Below are positions 7,446-29,640 of a DNA stretch of 64,000 nt, piece by piece. The notes under the pieces were generated by a model. That model had not been told where the DNA came from. It saw only the letters and a list, made by a program, of their open reading frames with translations, and searched no databases. Numbering within the stretch: the first letter of the stretch is position 1; each line of letters begins with the position of its first letter. The stretch lies in contig NZ_CP030073.1 in assembly GCF_003261055.1 (NCBI RefSeq), positions 186,001 to 250,000 of the forward strand, written 5' to 3'. The position numbers and the translations under genes were made by a program. The DNA comes from Streptomyces cadmiisoli (GTDB lineage Bacteria > Actinomycetota > Actinomycetes > Streptomycetales > Streptomycetaceae).

Positions 7446-8099
7446 ATGCTCGAGCCCTCCTATCTGACCGCCGTCCGCGACTCTTACGACACGGTCGCCG
7501 CCGACTACCTCGAACGCGTCCCGCCTCCAGCCGCGATGGACCCGCTCTCCCGCGCGATGCTGGCAGGGTTCGCCGAACTCGTACGGACGGCCGGTCTGGG
7601 GCCGGTCGCGGACCTGGGCTGCGGACCCGGACGCATTACCGCGCACCTGGCCGGGCTGGGAGTGTCCGCCTTCGGCGTCGATCTGTCACCGAAGATGATC
7701 GGACTGGCCCGGCACTCCTACCCGACCCTGCGGTTCACCGAGGGCACGATGACCGCGCTGGACATGAGCAACGACGAGCTCGGCGGCATCCTCGCCTGGT
7801 ACTCCACCCACCACACGCCTCCGCAATGGCTGCCCGATGTGTTCGCAGAGTTCCACCGCACACTCGCGCCCGGCGGCTACCTGCTCTGGGGAGACTACGC
7901 CGGCAACGAACGGCTGCAGCCGACCCACGGCTACGGCCGCCCGGTGTCCTACGAGTCCTACCTCCTGCCACTGAACCGCATGATCGACCTGCTCGAGCAG
8001 GCCGGCCTCGTCGTCATCGCCAGACTCGAACAAGAGCCCGGCGGACGCGTCAACAGACCGCACGCCTGCATCCTCGCCCGCAAGCCCGAAACACCCTGA
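7446..8099 (+). CDS. class I SAM-dependent methyltransferase
   Basis: A 217-aa cytoplasmic protein starting MLEPSYLTAVRDSYDTVAAD. Motif I is VADLGCGPGRITAHL, followed by GVDLSPKMI (motif II, with the acidic residue that binds the SAM ribose) and a LAPGGYLLWGDY motif. This is the Methyltransf_11/25 arrangement. The first 20 residues, with VRDSYDTVAADY, are typical of small Streptomyces methyltransferases of unknown substrate. It stands alone. Confidence 0.9.
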   Translation: MLEPSYLTAVRDSYDTVAADYLERVPPPAAMDPLSRAMLAGFAELVRTAGLGPVADLGCGPGRITAHLAGLGVSAFGVDLSPKMIGLARHSYPTLRFTEGTMTALDMSNDELGGILAWYSTHHTPPQWLPDVFAEFHRTLAPGGYLLWGDYAGNERLQPTHGYGRPVSYESYLLPLNRMIDLLEQAGLVVIARLEQEPGGRVNRPHACILARKPETP

Positions 8100-8236
8100 C
8101 ACGGCACGATCCCGGCGTCAGACCACTCGCCTGGACCACCGACAATCACGAGCGGGGCAGTCAGACCACTGTGCTGTCCCCTACTTGATGACCAGGCGTG
8201 ATGGGGTAGTCCGCGGACTTATAAGCAAGTCGGGGT

Positions 8237-23789: not shown

Positions 23790-24136
23790 ACCGATATACA
23801 CCGACTTACCTGAGACAGGACAGCAGCACGGCAGCCTCACATGACTCTGTAGCCACCACAGGTCGGACGACGGGAGCCGAGACCACGGCAACGAGAGGTG
23901 CGGCAGAACCAGGGCCATCCTCCCAATCGAACGCAAACATCACGCTCCGCGACTGTCCCCAAGATCTGTGCCAGAACCTTCAATCGAGAACACCTGTCGG
24001 TGGGTTTCGGCATCACGCCGTGACCGACAAGCTCGTGAATGTTGGTGAGAAGTAGGAGCACCCCGGGTGGCGGGGGCTCGATCGTGCCAGCGGAGCCGGC
24101 TGCGTTCGTGGCAGGATGACGACATGTTGATCGGCG
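23790..24136. other. no gene recognised (347 nt)
   Basis: No coding-like frame with recognisable content was found on either strand. Confidence 0.4.
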
Positions 24137-24556
24137 ATGCCGCGTAGGCGCCCGAAGGCCGTCCGTGATGAGCAGTGGCGGCCTCACAGACACGTTGCAG
24201 TTCGGCGAATCCGGGGCGTCTCCGCGAGGACTCGTGTAGCTGTCCGCCGCGTCGAGGATGAGCGGATGTGGCCTGGTGCAGTTGCTGACGCGCTCGCCCG
24301 TTTCGAGTGGGCGTTCAGGCGACCCGGCCGATATCTGAACGCATCCCGGGTCTGGCAGCCCGGACTGGAGGTGGAGTATGCCCGCGATGATCTGGAAGAG
24401 GTCGTGCTTCACCTCCCTCGCGGTGCCCAGCGCGATCTCGGCCGGCTGGTTGCTCGTATCGACGATGAGTTCGAGCGTCGCACTCTGCCGAATCCTGGGC
24501 CGGTGAACGCCTTCACGGTGGGCGGCTGGTGGTGGTCAAGGATCCGTGAGCACTGA
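24137..24556 (+). CDS. basic hypothetical protein
   Basis: A 139-aa Arg-rich protein starting MPRRRPKAVRDEQWRPHRHV. The C-terminal two thirds (DALARFEWAFRRPGRYLNAS, LHLPRGAQRDLGRLVARIDD, GWWWSRIREH) look well conserved and coding. It has no signal or membrane segment. Streptomyces genomes carry similar short proteins of unknown function near mobile DNA. Confidence 0.6.
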   Translation: MPRRRPKAVRDEQWRPHRHVAVRRIRGVSARTRVAVRRVEDERMWPGAVADALARFEWAFRRPGRYLNASRVWQPGLEVEYARDDLEEVVLHLPRGAQRDLGRLVARIDDEFERRTLPNPGPVNAFTVGGWWWSRIREH

Positions 24557-24585
24557 CGATGCTCACGAAGCCTCGTGCGCCCAGG

Positions 24586-24736
24586 TCAGTTCGTGGCCAC
24601 CTGTTGTTCGGCGCGGGCGCGGGTGGTGGCGAGGCTGTAGAAGTTGGTGCGGGGTTTCGATGATGTTGCCGCCGAAGGTGAGGCGGTCGACGATGGCCCC
24701 GCAGAGCCTGGGATCGGTGAAGGTCTTGGTCCAGCC
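24586..24736 (-). pseudogene. istB: 3' portion of a split istB (IS21-family ATPase)
   Basis: The minus strand reads GWTKTFTDPRLCGAIVDRLT, FGGNIIE and, after a one-base shift, GTNFYSLATTRARAEQQVAT to TGA at 24586-24588. This is exactly the C-terminal end of Streptomyces IstB proteins. Its N-terminal and middle parts lie 3.66 kb away at 28395-29033 on the same strand and break off at SNESFG, so a mobile element has inserted between them. Confidence 0.8.
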
Positions 24737-24935
24737 ATCTGGGGCTGGCACTTGTTCCCTCACAAGGGTTGCCGCTGCCACCTGGCCGTATCCCCCTTCT
24801 GGGGGCCTCGTTGATTCTCGCGGTGGCACTCCTGTTTTCAAGGTGCTGCCTTGACCGTTCAGGTGCGAGGAAGGTGTGCCGGTGGCGGAGGCGAGACTGC
24901 AGGTCATCGCGGGCGGGGCTATTCCGTAGGAACCG

Positions 24936-25946
24936 CTGACGACGGATCCATGGCAGTTCCAGACCGCGTGCGTCGACGCGTTCGTCGCCTCATGGCGGGC
25001 CCGAGGGTTCAGTCCAGTGACCATCGACAACGACATCGGGCAGCTGGAGCGGACCCTGAAAGCTCTGGGCCGGCCTGCATGGGAGGTGACGCCCGAGGAC
25101 GTCGACCGCGTGGTCGGCGACCTGGCGGTTCAGGGCCGCAAGACGTCCACCCGGCGCGAGTATGTGCAGATCTTCAAGGGCTTCCACCGGTTCCTTCAGG
25201 CCCGCAAGGCGCCCGAGATCGAGGCCGCGTTCGGCGTCCGCCTGGTCTGCCCGATCGACGAGTTCAACGCCTCCCGTCACGTCGGCGACGATTCACCGGC
25301 CCTGCTGCCGCCGCCGACACCGGAGCGGGTGAACGAGTTCTTCGACTTCATGAAGCAGCGGATCGCGACCGCGAGGAAGTACGGACCCGCCGCCCGGGAC
25401 TATGCGATGTTCCGGACTCTGTATCACGCCGGACTCCGCTCCGAGGAGGCATCACTGCTGGAGAAGCCGGACCTGCACTTCACCCGTGGGCCGTTCGGCA
25501 AGCTCCATGTGCGGTTCGGCAAGGGCGCCCATACTTCCGGGCCGCGGCCGCGGTGGGTGCCCATGCTGGATGGACTCGATCTGGTGCTGCGATTGTTCTT
25601 GGAGGACGTGCGGCCCAAGTTCCCCGACTCGCCGGTGCTGTTCGCCGACGAGTCCGGGGGCAGTCTCCATCGCGGGACCATCCGCAACCGCCTGCGCTGT
25701 CTGATGGAGCTCGAGGGCCGTCCGCCAGCCGACCGGTTCAGCCCGCATGCCCTGCGACGAGCTTGCGCGACCCACAACTACGAACGCGGCGTCGACCTCG
25801 CGGCGATCCAGCAGATGCTCGGTCACTGGACGGTCAGCTCGACCATGCGATATGTCCGGCCCTCGGCGACCTTCATCGAAGACGCCTATCAACGTGCCGT
25901 CGCGAGCACTCTGGCCGAACTGACCGGGAAGGACATCAAAGGGTGA
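24936..25946 (+). CDS. tyrosine recombinase (XerC-like), first gene of the element
   Basis: A phage-integrase-type recombinase. The catalytic residues are readable: Arg in YHAGLRSEE, His-x-x-Arg in SPHALRRACATHNYERG, His in LGHWTVSS and the nucleophile Tyr in TMRYVRPS. In the 336-aa numbering these are R168, H271, R274, H297 and Y306. Homology-like sequence (LTTDPWQFQTACVDAFVASW) continues upstream of GTG 25017 back to CTG 24936, which has TAGGA 5 nt before it. CTG is therefore proposed as the start; GTG 25017 would delete part of the SAM-like N-terminal domain. The stop overlaps the next gene by GTGA. It should cut and rejoin DNA at the element ends. Confidence 0.88.
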   Translation: MTTDPWQFQTACVDAFVASWRARGFSPVTIDNDIGQLERTLKALGRPAWEVTPEDVDRVVGDLAVQGRKTSTRREYVQIFKGFHRFLQARKAPEIEAAFGVRLVCPIDEFNASRHVGDDSPALLPPPTPERVNEFFDFMKQRIATARKYGPAARDYAMFRTLYHAGLRSEEASLLEKPDLHFTRGPFGKLHVRFGKGAHTSGPRPRWVPMLDGLDLVLRLFLEDVRPKFPDSPVLFADESGGSLHRGTIRNRLRCLMELEGRPPADRFSPHALRRACATHNYERGVDLAAIQQMLGHWTVSSTMRYVRPSATFIEDAYQRAVASTLAELTGKDIKG

Positions 25947-26257
25947 AGATCCAATGGCGGCTGCGGATGGCCGCCGCCCAGCGAGAGGTCTGGACCGGCA
26001 CCGAACTGCGGCGGTTGCTCGCCGAGAAGGCCGGTCTGGAGCTGTCCTCAGCGTCGGTGTCCGCACTGTTCACGAAGGAACCCTCGCAGGTGAAGATGAC
26101 CACGCTGGCCGCGTTGTGCACCGCTCTGGAGTGCACCCCCAACGACCTGATCGAAGTCGACACCACCCCCGTCGAGCGGCCGATCGCACCCCCTCGCCCG
26201 GTCGCCGACCTGCCGCAGGCCGCCTCGGCCCGGGGCCGGTCGATGCCGCCCCTGTGA
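25943..26257 (+). CDS. small Cro/C1-type helix-turn-helix protein
   Basis: A 104-aa protein starting at GTG 25943 and translationally coupled to the recombinase by a GTGA overlap. The body RMAAAQREVWTGTELRRLLA, LELSSASVSALFTKEP, TTLAALCTALECTPNDLIEV is a compact XRE/YozG-like HTH, followed by a Pro/Arg-rich tail. It may regulate the operon or act as a recombination directionality or accessory factor, comparable in position to the small third protein of Tn554-like elements (inference). Confidence 0.8.
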   Translation: MKIQWRLRMAAAQREVWTGTELRRLLAEKAGLELSSASVSALFTKEPSQVKMTTLAALCTALECTPNDLIEVDTTPVERPIAPPRPVADLPQAASARGRSMPPL

Positions 26258-26269
26258 CGGCGGGCCGCG

Positions 26270-27907
26270 ATGGGCAAGAAGCAACGGGACTGCGTCGCCT
26301 GCGGCGGACCGGTCGGATATCTCGACCGCCAGCACTGCTGCCGGTGCTGGCGCCGCATGAAGGGGGAAGCCGCCAAGGCCCCATGCCCCTCCTGCGGCCT
26401 CGACCGCGTGCTGCAGAACGACACCGGCAGGTGCATCACCTGTTCTCGCGTTTGCAGGGAATGCGGCCACCCGGTCCGGTCACCGAAGAACCAGCTGTGC
26501 CGGGAATGCCGACGCAAGGCCGGCCAGCTGGCTGGCCAGCGGATATGCCCGCGCTGTGGAAAGCTGGGCTATCTGCGCGAGACGACCGGCTGGTGCGGTC
26601 ACTGTTCACGGCCCCGGCCGGAGAAGAAGCCGCCGAGGATCTGCCGCGAATGCGGGCAACTTCGGCGCCATGCCGGCCTTGGGCTCTGCTCGGCCTGCTG
26701 GCAAAAGCACCCCGGTCGTCCCTTCATCCGCGGTGAACACCTCCGCGAACGGCTCACCGACCCGCCCAGATGGCTCGGCGATTTCGTGGCCGAGGTCGCG
26801 GCTGGCCACTGCGTTGCCAGAGCCTGCGGCTTCATCACGGACCTGGGGCGGCTCCTGGAGGACGAGCACTCCAACTCGCCCCAGGCCCTGCTGGAACGGT
26901 CCCGCAGGCCCGGACGGTCGATGGGCTCCTTCGCCCGTGCACTCGAGGACTTCTTCACCCTCCGCGGCCTGGCACTTCCCACCGACCAGGCCGAGCGGCT
27001 TGCCGCGGGCCGACGTCACCGCCGGGTCGAGGCCGTGCCCGAACCCTTGCGGCAGGCCGTTGCGGCGTTCGACGTCTTCCGGATGCGAGCCCAGGATCGG
27101 GCGCGGCGAGCCGGCACCCGCCCTCGCACCAACCACACCCTGGAAACCGCCCTGGCCACTCTGCGGGACCTGGCCGTCTTCCTGATCAACGAGCGCGTCA
27201 AGGACGGCTGGTCTCTCGTCGACGTGCACGACATCGAAGCCTTCCTTGCCGTCCTGCCCCGGGCCCGCAAGCGGCGACTGACAGTGCTGCGGCAGTTCTT
27301 CCGCTTCGCGCGGGCCCAGAAGCTGCTGCTGGTCGATCCGACCCGCGGCCTGGCCGCGAAGGAAGCGAGCGGCTTCCGTGGCCAGACCCTCACTCTCGAT
27401 CAGCAGCGCGAGCTGTTCCGGCGCTGGACGGCCGAAGACCTCGTTCACCCCCACGAGGCTCTCGTGGGCATGCTCGCCCTGCTGCATGGTGCCTCCAGCT
27501 CGGAGGTCCGGCTGTTGCAGATCACCGACGTGGACCGCCTCGCCCAGAGCATCCGGCTCGGCAAGCGGCCCCACCCCGTGCCCCTGGACCCCGCCTCCTG
27601 GACGGTGCTGCAGAGATGCCTGGACCACCGCAATGGCTGGCCGACCGAGAACCCGCACGTCATGGTCACCAAAGGAACAAAGGCTGGGCGAAGCCCGGCC
27701 TCAACCGCCTATCTCTCCCATGTCCTTGACGACTGCGGATTCCCTCCCCGGATGATCCGCAGCACCCGCCTGCTCGACCTGGTGAACACCATGGACCCCA
27801 AGCTCGTCGCCGCCGCCTTCGGCATGGACCCACAAGCCACCTTGATCTATCTGTCCGATCGCATCGACGAGACCCGCTTGTCGCAGTGGGAGACGGAAAG
27901 AGGCTGA
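26270..27907 (+). CDS. large recombinase-like protein with N-terminal zinc-finger array
   Basis: A 545-aa protein. Residues ~1-150 hold about eight CxxC-type pairs (CVACGGP, CCRCWRR, CPSCGLD, CITCSRVCRECG, CPRCGK, CRECGQ, CSACWQ), a likely array of zinc ribbons for DNA binding. The middle has a SAM-like integrase N-terminal domain. The C-terminal half resembles a tyrosine recombinase (LLHGASSSEVRLLQITDVD, RSTRLLDLVNTMDPKLVAAA, TLIYLSDRI with candidate Tyr527). The first catalytic Arg and the His of HxxR are not in place, so activity may be altered or it may be an accessory partner of the first recombinase. Related remnants lie at 11578 and 13585. Confidence 0.8.
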   Translation: MGKKQRDCVACGGPVGYLDRQHCCRCWRRMKGEAAKAPCPSCGLDRVLQNDTGRCITCSRVCRECGHPVRSPKNQLCRECRRKAGQLAGQRICPRCGKLGYLRETTGWCGHCSRPRPEKKPPRICRECGQLRRHAGLGLCSACWQKHPGRPFIRGEHLRERLTDPPRWLGDFVAEVAAGHCVARACGFITDLGRLLEDEHSNSPQALLERSRRPGRSMGSFARALEDFFTLRGLALPTDQAERLAAGRRHRRVEAVPEPLRQAVAAFDVFRMRAQDRARRAGTRPRTNHTLETALATLRDLAVFLINERVKDGWSLVDVHDIEAFLAVLPRARKRRLTVLRQFFRFARAQKLLLVDPTRGLAAKEASGFRGQTLTLDQQRELFRRWTAEDLVHPHEALVGMLALLHGASSSEVRLLQITDVDRLAQSIRLGKRPHPVPLDPASWTVLQRCLDHRNGWPTENPHVMVTKGTKAGRSPASTAYLSHVLDDCGFPPRMIRSTRLLDLVNTMDPKLVAAAFGMDPQATLIYLSDRIDETRLSQWETERG

Positions 27908-28321
27908 TTAGAGCACGTAAGGGTAGAGACTGACCTTCTCGCGGTCGACAAGGAGCTCGACCCACGTATCGGCGACATCTTCGGGCAGCGGATCAGCAAG
28001 GTCTAGCAGGATGTTCGTACCGTCGAGGTCCAGCAGGGCGGCGCCGTCCTCAGTCGGGCTCAGCTGTCCCCGCAAAACCACGCAGTGCCCGCCAGTTCGG
28101 AGCCCAGGACCGACCCCAACAGCTGGCTTGACGTTCTGCCGCCAGGCGATGTCCTCGTCGATCGTCCACTCGACGTGGTACTCGCCGGGCTTCGCGGCCC
28201 CGTCCCCGCACCAACGGACCGCAGTGTGACCGAACGAGGTCCGGACATCGGCCAGCCATAGGCCTCCGGGAGACTTTGCGACCTTCACCAGTTCGATCAA
28301 CACCCCTCGATGATGAAGCAT
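27908..28321 (-). CDS. passenger gene of the element, unknown function
   Basis: A 137-aa protein starting MLHHRGVLIELVKVAKSPGG and ending VELLVDREKVSLYPYVL, 0 nt from the convergent recombinase-like gene. It is a beta-rich, acidic, soluble protein (EYHVEWTIDEDIAWRQNVKP, GAALLDLDGTNILLDLADPL) with no recognised family. It is the only gene in the element not obviously linked to recombination, so it is the presumed cargo or an immunity/regulatory factor. An upstream GTG is also possible as the start. Confidence 0.65.
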   Translation of the reverse strand: MLHHRGVLIELVKVAKSPGGLWLADVRTSFGHTAVRWCGDGAAKPGEYHVEWTIDEDIAWRQNVKPAVGVGPGLRTGGHCVVLRGQLSPTEDGAALLDLDGTNILLDLADPLPEDVADTWVELLVDREKVSLYPYVL

Positions 28322-28394
28322 CCACGTCGCCGCCGGAACCCGTGAAGTTTCGGCGCTGCCTGGCACGGGTTCGCCGGAACATGTGCGCTTTTCC

Positions 28395-29033
28395 GAACGA
28401 CTCGTTGGAGGCGATGGCGACGCTGTTCTTCTCCTCGCGCTCGGTCAGGACCTGGAAGAGGAGCTCGGCGCCGCGGCGGTCGAGTTCCATGTAGCCGAGT
28501 TCGTCGATGCAGAGCAGGTCGACGCGGCCGTAGCGGGCGATGGTCTTGGTCAGCTGCTTCTCGTCGGCGGCTACGACCAGCTCGTTGACCAGCTTCGTCG
28601 CCAGGACGTACTGGACCCGGTGGCCGGCCATCGAGGCCTCGGTGCCGAGCGCGGTCAGCAGGTGGGACTTGCCCGTGCTGGAGTCGCCGGTGAGACAGAG
28701 CGGCAAGCCCTTCTTGATTCATTCACACTTGGTGAGGGTGTGGACCATGTCCGCGTCGTTGCACAGTTGGCGTCGAAGTCGAACTTGCGCAGCGACTTGT
28801 CGCGTGGGAACCCGGCGACCTTGACGCGCCGCTCAGGGCCGGCGCCGGGCCCGGTCATCGCGCTCTGCCAGCAGGAGCTCGGAGAGGAATCCGAGGTCGG
28901 ACATCTGCTCGCGGCCGGCCGTTACGGGACTCGGGAACTGGGAGCTGGTGGGCAGCCTCAGCATCCGGCATGCCTGGTCGATCGCCGCCGTGGCGGCCTG
29001 TTCGGTGAGTCCTCGCTGGCGGGGGATGGACAC
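28395..29033 (-). pseudogene. istB: 5' and middle portion of split istB
   Basis: It begins at GTG 29033 with AAGGAGA upstream and reads SIPRQRGLTEQAATAAIDQA. It then needs frame changes near 28860 and 28740 (VAGFPRDKSLRKFDFDAN; LCLTGDSSTGKSHLLTALG with the Walker A). The middle is in good order: KTIARYGRVDLLCIDELGYM (Walker B), LTEREEKNSVAIASNESFG, stopping at the element edge. Already degenerate, and then split by the insertion. Confidence 0.8.
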
Positions 29034-29044
29034 GCTGTTCTCCT

Positions 29045-29640
29045 TCAAGGGGTGTGGCGGTCGCGGCGGAGCCGCAGGAGCTGGTCGTAGTGAGCGACCG
29101 ACGGCAAAGGCCGTTTGTCGGGTGGCAGGCGGGCGCGGACAGCAGCCGCGAGCGGAGCAATGCTGGTCCGGCTGACTGTCGCCGGTTCCGGGGCCTCCAC
29201 AGGGATAGCGTCGGCGCCCGCCGCCTTGCGGGCTTCCAGGGCGACGGCGTCCGCCGTCAGCGCCCCGGTCTTGAGGGCGTCGGCAAGTCCGTTGACCAGG
29301 TGCTCGTGCGGCGAGTGCCGTCCGAGGAGGAGCACCTCGATGAGCGTACGGGTGCCGTCCCGCTCGCCTTGGGTCTTGACCGCGGCTTCCCACCAGGCGT
29401 CGTGGACGGGAGTGAACCGGCCTGCGGAGCGGCCCTGGTCGAGCGCGGCCGCTCCCGGCAGAGCGCCAGGTTTGCGCACGAGAGCTTCCAGGTAGTGGTC
29501 CAGTTCGAGGCGGGTGCCGCCCTTGGCAATCAGCCGAGGCATGCAGCATCGCGCGGACGTTCCGGCCGATCAGCCGGATCGACACCGAGTAGCTCCGGCG
29601 GAGACCGACCCCGACGACCCGCCGCAGCCGTCGTCCGCTG
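29045..29640 (-). pseudogene. istA: IS21-family transposase C-terminal part
   Basis: An intact frame from 29542 to 29045 reads RLIAKGGTRLELDHYLEALV, KPGALPGAAALDQGRSAGRF and further IstA tail sequence, and stops 11 nt before istB, as in IS21 elements. Upstream, RRSYSVSIRLIGRNVRAMLH in another frame shows an internal deletion or shift; everything 5' of about 29640 is lost. The DDE core is absent. Confidence 0.75.

Follow-up and report, generated by a model that had tools for sequence, protein, structure and literature searches.

A tyrosine-recombinase transposon within istB of Streptomyces cadmiisoli and a probable family of relatives with target sites in genes of other mobile elements

The window analysed here is a stretch of 64,000 nucleotides from Streptomyces cadmiisoli (contig NZ_CP030073.1, positions 186,001 to 250,000), and coordinates given without a locus name refer to it. 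It contains an istB gene of an IS21-family element, the reading of which is interrupted at 24736/24737 and picks up again at 28392. Between these points lies an element of 3655 bp (24737..28391, plus strand), antisense within istB, whose extent is given by the ends that it shares with related copies and by zero-offset empty sites. The C-terminal part of the interrupted istB (GWTKTFTDPRLC...) occupies 24566..24736 on the minus strand and was identified by reading, this 57-aa piece having no PF01695 match, while the N-terminal part, up to SNESFG, occupies 28392..28718 on the same strand (PF01695, E 9e-27, profile positions 95-197 of 238). The N-terminal part is broken again further upstream, with two TGA codons in the wider match, and a remnant at 29045-29542 on the minus strand presumably resembles the C-terminal part of IstA of the host IS21. 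The original prediction, made from the letters of this DNA, was that istB is split by a discrete insertion at 24737..28393. The split is borne out, since 32 further distinct copies have the same two ends and empty istB genes agree; the left bound is also exact. However, the right end lies at 28391, 2 bp earlier than proposed, because bases 28392-28393 (TC) belong to istB, as shown by the empty istB of locus L096, TCCGAACGACTCG.

Long terminal repeats are absent, as had been noticed, and the ends carry just a short inverted motif of 10 bp, GCACTTGTTC at 24748-24757 and GAACATGTGC at 28377-28386; that is, GCACnnGTTC at the left end is paired in inverted orientation with GAACnnGTGC at the right end. 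The left end (24737..24757, plus strand) reads ATCTGGGGCTGGCACTTGTTC, including the end motif, and is strongly conserved among the copies of the window's clade (group 1), which open with ATC, AAC or GAC. The right end is a conserved stretch of 56 bp (28336..28391, plus strand) with GCACGGGTTC at 28363-28372, the inverted motif and a terminal GCGCTTT. Copies of two sister clades described below, the IS256 and PLD clades, show the same left-end skeleton, and their ends are similar to those of the istB clade. The list of inverted repeats within the element comprises 249 pairs, and nothing further of use was found among the best 25.

Three genes on the plus strand overlap or abut, in agreement with the original prediction: the first two share GTGA, and the third begins 12 bp after the second. 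The first gene, Int1 (24876..25946), encodes a XerC/D-like tyrosine recombinase (PF00589, E 1.4e-22 on 25017-25943). Its GTG start was assigned by homology, the start in most group-1 relatives being at element position 140 and the product 355-360 aa long. The window copy has the same GTG at 24876, followed by an in-frame TAG at 24927-24929, and the next start is GTG at 25017; judging by these letters, Int1 of this copy is either broken or shortened, with a start further downstream, and on account of the nonsense codon the copy can probably not move by itself. Among 15 aligned Int1 proteins the residues R, HxxR, GH and Y, which make up the catalytic set of tyrosine recombinases, are invariant. 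A sequence search of solved structures with Int1 matched XerD, XerC-like and XerA chains.

The second gene (25943..26257, plus strand) encodes a small Cro/C1-type HTH protein of 104 aa (PF13443, HTH_26, E 4.4e-11). The third, Int2 (26270..27907, plus strand), encodes 545 aa, composed of a zinc-ribbon array, a core-binding-like region and a degenerate catalytic region according to NCBIfam models and alignment. The matches of Int2 to the NCBIfam XerC/XerD models have E values of 1e-6 to 1e-5 and lie under the model cut-offs; PF00589 has no match in Int2, the solved-structure sequence search gave none, and no Int2 relative was found in a phage collection at E 1e-5. An alignment of ten divergent Int2 proteins has Y527 and eight CxxC pairs in every sequence. 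Motif reading indicates S or T in place of the first arginine, and GM or GL where the recombinase motif has GH. Of the two proteins originally called recombinases, both with a putative recombinase fold, only Int1 has the full catalytic set by motif reading. Partners of this kind are documented: GinC of the GInt elements and Tfp of SE, the strand-biased circularizing integrative element, are reported to be without the first arginine or the catalytic motif in the descriptions of these proteins (PMC5385486, PMC10214605). A single convergent gene, the cargo, fills the right end as predicted (27908..28366, minus strand). The predicted gene content, with one cargo gene, one HTH protein and two proteins of the recombinase fold in a discrete mobile element, is correct.

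We searched 392 genomes of the same genus with the element DNA, scoring two candidates per genome, and at least 14 of them (the genome of the window included) have a single matching stretch of at least 2.7 kb. Scanning species genomes with Int2 yielded 28 loci, and among plasmids 77 records were matched by the DNA and 65 by the Int2 protein. Copies with both ends make up 41 rows, i.e., the window copy, 32 distinct relatives and eight duplicates, with lengths of 2380-4211 bp. The genome of the window itself (10.24 Mb), in which the window lies at 186-250 kb of a 9.27-Mb contig, holds one full copy; what matches best elsewhere in it is a 230-bp remnant of Int2, decayed, on contig C2. The three genes were not seen in fixed chromosomal places without boundaries, an outcome that would have spoken against the original prediction. 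All three frames are open in many relatives (e.g., the fetched loci L005, L007, L008, L010-L013, L015, L036 and L051); others are decayed, with Int1 broken in L016, Int2 in L022, L027, L029 and L043, and both in L034 and L052. In L028/L196 (Mycobacterium), a group-1 element has its Int2 in two halves with an IS256-family transposase reading between them.

Then, was the element caught inside istB by accident, as the original prediction implied? From the fetched loci we collected flanks of at least 30 bp; 48 of those on the left and 55 of those on the right are distinct. Four left rows, which on reading are not element ends (L047 at 4799, L062 at 3253, L081 and L213), were dropped, as were seven right rows of the IS256 clade, three of the PLD clade and one unclassified (L204/L197). 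All group-1 flanks that were counted, 44 distinct ones on the left and as many on the right, have istB at the same codon, L054, L059, L062 and L063 being assigned from a short reading or from DNA, and each of the 88 readings runs antisense to the element; the base profile described below gives these numbers too. That is, istB is the site in every readable flank of the clade, and the place is not incidental. In the reverse reading, the right flank as a rule closes with TSNxxF/P and one further residue (variants include ASNESFG, TTNVGIA and TGNKPFG), with the motif degenerate in L051, L052 and L063 and frameshifted in L062; the continuations on the left include GWTKTF, EWGQVF, DWATAF, RWGETF, GFDTIM, DWYPLF and EWLTMT. 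PF01695 (IstB_IS21) has a match in 37 of the 51 right-flank rows (group 1 accounts for 41 of these 51) and in 39 of the 43 left-flank rows, and in seven flanks scanned singly the IstB match stops at profile position 194-197 of 238.

The comparison of occupied with empty sites, which had been proposed as a check, gave the exact ends. L036 (Rhodococcus) and the empty site L082 agree in 60 of 60 bases on each side with an offset of zero, L010 and L086 agree in 59 of 60 on each side, and the offset is zero in all 11 comparisons (eight occupied loci), with 48-60 of 60 matches per side. Insertion falls between two codons just after the TSNxxF of istB, the target being neither duplicated nor lost. 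We also looked for a 6-bp footprint like that of SE; the bases beside the right end have similar natural variants in empty istB genes, and none is claimed.

The alignment of insertion sites, also proposed earlier, revealed a shared target. After collapsing at 80% identity, 11 istB representatives remained on the left and 22 on the right, and in their profile the most frequent base accounts for at least 82% at T-23, C-22, G-21, G-18, A-17, CCA at -6 to -4, C-1, GTT at +13 to +15, G+20, T+21 and A+23. A 12-base skeleton of this target is of insufficient specificity, with 120 matches among 101 genomes, 68 of which have a match, compared with 63 matches for the control read backwards. Among 30 fetched matches, 16 are in istB and 14 are outside it; therefore, either more than these bases is read or other insertions have been lost. 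An alternative scenario is loose insertion with purifying selection, in which many sites are hit and copies survive only in dispensable IS genes. IS genes are indeed dispensable, and the skeleton matches outside istB are in its favor. However, survival in dispensable DNA would spread the copies over many genes, many positions and both orientations, rather than over one codon and one orientation in 44 of 44 flanks on either side, and we consider this scenario quite unlikely.

Another explanation for the common position is descent. In this case, a single ancient insertion into istB would have been followed by the joint spread of an IS21-plus-element composite. Composites of such a kind do exist in the IS256 clade, where Rhodococcus ZPP has near-identical IS256-plus-element stretches on two plasmids. 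Within group 1, however, the elements occupy at least seven istB types (grouped by hand), and the type does not track the element tree. On a DNA tree of 23 elements, with six type labels taken from the left flank, istB type changes 13 times, against a minimum of 5 and a mean of 12.8 for shuffled labels, and values as low occur in 146 of 200 shuffles. In addition, Rhodococcus sp. NJ-530 carries two elements (L036 and L037) that are identical over 3218 bp and lie in two different istB types. Since istB type does not follow the element tree and an identical element is present in two types, hitchhiking with IS21 was rejected for group 1, and we regard it as extremely improbable. Instead, the comparison of these sequences indicates repeated independent insertion into diverged istB types. 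Note that L030/L050, L027/L040, L018/L054 and L011, which make up four of the 32 distinct copies with both flanks, have halves of two istB types, which suggests recombination between element copies.

A possible trace of a former insertion was found in the genome of the window. Another istB there (C1:9052970-9053264; L073, L075 and L135) is frameshifted, and precisely at the target codon it has an insertion of ATCTGGG, the 7 bp with which the element begins. In this one case, the 7 bp may be a remnant left by a deletion between two GCTG repeats or by imperfect excision. Other 7-bp scars were sought with a loose pattern, which proved uninformative, as it matched 245 of 246 genomes.

More distant relatives lie in other genes. 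In the IS256 clade, whose Int2 is 47-50% identical and whose gene order is the same, the element is within an IS256-family (PF00872) transposase gene in sense orientation. The site is GDGGEG|AKFW, with zero-offset read-through in seven of seven distinct right flanks; the left flanks agree in five loci (L181, L182, L184, L185 and L188), and L190 ends at the element. The IS256 loci are partly non-independent, L181 and L184 being related plasmids and L182 and L185 coming from one strain with near-identical flanks. Three copies form the PLD clade (L183, L186 and L187; Int2 51-52%), and the three genes that they occupy are homologous and show a weak PLD-like domain (PF13091). The most distant clade (L180, L189, L212 and L213; Int2 about 36-38%) has its left end just past a Walker B-like DEAQ/DDAQ of an ATPase in four of four copies, read on the left side only; the ATPase was identified as AAA_22 by Pfam in L180 and L213 and by reading alone in L189 and L212. 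A Mu-type transposase gene lies upstream of the copy in L189 only, and the ATPase may be inferred to be a transposition gene. Copies of the ATPase clade (L180, L189, L213 and those at the ends of G732 C1) are near the ends of linear replicons, beside helicase-associated genes, and a TnsA/transposase/TniB/TniQ set adjoins the copy in L180. The Int1 and Int2 trees, rooted at the midpoint, both have one clade per target, with three changes, which is the minimum. Support for the istB clade is 93/96 in the Int1 tree and 100/99 in the Int2 tree, and L213 is a long branch. The labels of L190 and L152 in these trees were taken from kinship and not from a read flank, and the label 'TniB' is shorthand for the ATPase.

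Two of the IS256-clade loci also contain adjacent pairs of tyrosine-recombinase genes in the same IS256 gene as the trio (L182:7189-10529 and L185:6871-10541). The proteins have 350/763 aa in L182 and about 413/810 aa in L185, which is the size of Tn554-related pairs. This brings in a third alternative, namely that the element is a known actinobacterial Tn554-related transposon of the kind described by Van Houdt et al. (2012), found in IS elements by chance. Both have two recombinase-fold genes and a small third gene, both are found in Actinobacteria, some of them on the same plasmids, and pREL1, which carries an element of the present family, is also in Table 2 of that paper (PMC3414803). However, the pairs summarized there consist of a recombinase of about 350 aa and one of 611-828 aa (PMC3414803), whereas Int2 has 545 aa with a zinc array. 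With the 350/763-aa pair of L182 as a stand-in for the published pairs, Int2 has no significant match to the 763-aa protein adjoining the trio, and Int1 of L005 is 28% identical to the 350-aa protein over 174 residues of the catalytic part. On the grounds of size and of the missing Int2 similarity to this stand-in, the Tn554-like pair was rejected, and we think this explanation very unlikely. A group II or other self-splicing intron was rejected as well, there being no Rfam match with E up to 1 in 24000-29500.

The resemblance to Tn554 that was originally noted thus holds for the layout, and does not extend to a significant similarity of Int2 to the long member of the stand-in pair. According to the parts of PMC3414803 that deal with these elements, Tn554 and the related pairs are likewise tyrosine-recombinase transposons, the site of Tn554 is unique, and a small third protein accompanies most pairs in two of the three groups; here, the third protein is an HTH_26 protein. 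The second recombinase of those pairs is very long, unlike the 545 aa of Int2, and neither a zinc-array protein nor istB targeting appears in these parts of the account. The GInt elements, as portrayed in the relevant passages of Bardaji et al. (2017, PMC5385486), share with the present element the operon at the left end, the cargo straight after the last gene, the short right end, the high site specificity, a recombinase-fold partner without the first arginine (GinC) and a small helix protein. They differ in having four genes (three integrases and a small gene), 2.5-70 kb of cargo, imperfect direct repeats of 10-11 nt, and other targets, among which are an ABC-transporter gene and ssb (PMC5385486). 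The element here has three genes instead of ginABCD, i.e., two for recombinase-fold proteins and one for an HTH protein, a slot of up to about 1 kb in the copies seen, zero-offset insertion with no direct repeat, and istB as its target; its proteins were set apart from the Gin proteins by description.

Similarly, SE has a recombinase operon, a non-catalytic partner (Tfp), short inverted end motifs and few target sites, in the sections of Idola et al. (2023, PMC10214605) that describe it. SE has the genes intA, tfp, intB and srap, two recombinases with the RHRY motif, a 6-bp footprint and a strand-biased circularization by which no empty site arises, and is given there as confined to Gammaproteobacteria (PMC10214605). 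The gene content found here is different from intA-tfp-intB-srap, and the proteins were set apart from those of SE by description. A further comparison is with RIT (recombinases in trio), which in the pertinent part of PMC3414803 are about 3,500 bp long with adjacent overlapping recombinase genes, three in number, all with a possible catalytic motif; three such genes are not present here. RIT also provides the nearest precedent for the target, one being reported within the transposase gene of a Tn6049-like transposon in two Acidithiobacillus strains (PMC3414803), and its target specificity is listed as not tested in a table of PMC10214605. In the open-access literature, most subscription papers and bioRxiv lying outside the scope, we found neither a description of the element nor a tyrosine-recombinase transposon family that targets istB, IS256 or transposition genes of other elements, both of which are weak negatives. 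The original suggestion of a poorly described transposon class agrees with the lack of a description in that literature; the layout is that of known multi-integrase elements.

Based on the above, it is very probable that the element belongs to a family of tyrosine-recombinase transposons with a conserved coding motif as the site, the istB of IS21-family elements being the site of the window's clade. The best reading of the whole is a multi-protein tyrosine-recombinase family with a layout like that of GInt and SE, whose landing pads would be motifs in transposition genes of other elements. Several points weigh against it. The four copies with mixed istB halves require later recombination, and the skeleton matches outside istB leave site recognition unexplained. 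The 7-bp scar could equally be an ordinary deletion between 4-bp repeats. A sixth IS256 locus (L195/L203/L207) is decayed on the left, where the match to IS256 breaks off earlier. The gene with the PLD-like domain is not an obvious transposition gene. For the ATPase, the target was seen on the left only, AAA_22 was found in two of four copies and a neighboring transposase in L189 alone; this most distant clade is a weak point. Lastly, mobility is suggested by sequence comparison, and no excision, circle or transposition was observed.

A mechanism may be proposed as follows. Int1, with its complete catalytic set, would perform strand exchange, and Int2, which keeps the tyrosine and the zinc-ribbon array and has lost the first arginine and the histidines, would bind the ends or the target without cutting; these roles are suggested by the presence and loss of the catalytic set in the two proteins and by the analogous GinC and Tfp. 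The HTH protein may help to assemble or direct the complex, a circle would be the intermediate, and insertion would break the host IS. Integrative elements often take tRNA or other host genes as safe sites. In istB and transposase genes, which are dispersed, not needed by the host and under sequence constraint, an element would have safe landing pads both on chromosomes and on plasmids. In a broader view, the clades would constitute a superfamily parasitizing transposons, each locked onto one motif of a transposition protein (the IstB sensor region, the catalytic domain of the IS256 family and, probably, Walker B of a transposon ATPase); a zinc-array pseudo-recombinase would read the DNA, the host element would be inactivated, and targets would be switched while the ends and the catalytic partner were kept. 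Because the ATPase target is less certain, we put the chances of this broader view at about even.

If this is true, there would be an arms race inside the mobilome, in which IS21 and IS256 are disarmed and a dispersed, expendable landing pad is gained on chromosomes and plasmids. Some istB genes that are found split in actinobacteria may also be explained in this way. The clades would form a natural series with similar ends and catalytic partner and different target genes, and therefore target choice by multi-protein tyrosine recombinases, which is open for GInt, SE, RIT and Tn554, could be tested. The single cargo slot, with Barstar-like, GNAT or unknown genes, would make the element a small gene-mobilizing vehicle.

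This slot is the variable stretch among copies, located between Int2 and the last 56 bp; many copies match at the DNA level from base 1 to about 3131 and, after a gap, again over the last 56 bases. In the window it holds a gene for a Streptomycetaceae hypothetical protein with no Pfam match and 102 homologues, most of which indicate that the real length is 131-137 aa. All named sources of the homologues are Streptomyces, Kitasatospora, Actinacidiphila or Streptacidiphilus, and some of the homologues are on contigs of several Mb; on account of these sources and contigs, the window cargo looks captured. Cargo of the same type is present in L005, L007, L014 and L018 (blastp, 65-83%). Barstar was identified by Pfam (PF01337) in the slot of L011 at about 7608-8126, and is similar by eye in L010, L012 and L027 as well as in a second cargo gene of L005. 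GNAT was found by Pfam on L017, by annotation in L033 and by eye in L016, and DUF6228 by Pfam on L019; some copies have other cargo genes without a Pfam match. The slot is empty in L009, L029, L034 and L036, and the cargo-less copies are 3147-3218 bp long. Among them, L009 is a metagenome contig of 3208 bp that is nearly exactly one cargo-less element, which a collapsed repeat or a circle would fit equally.

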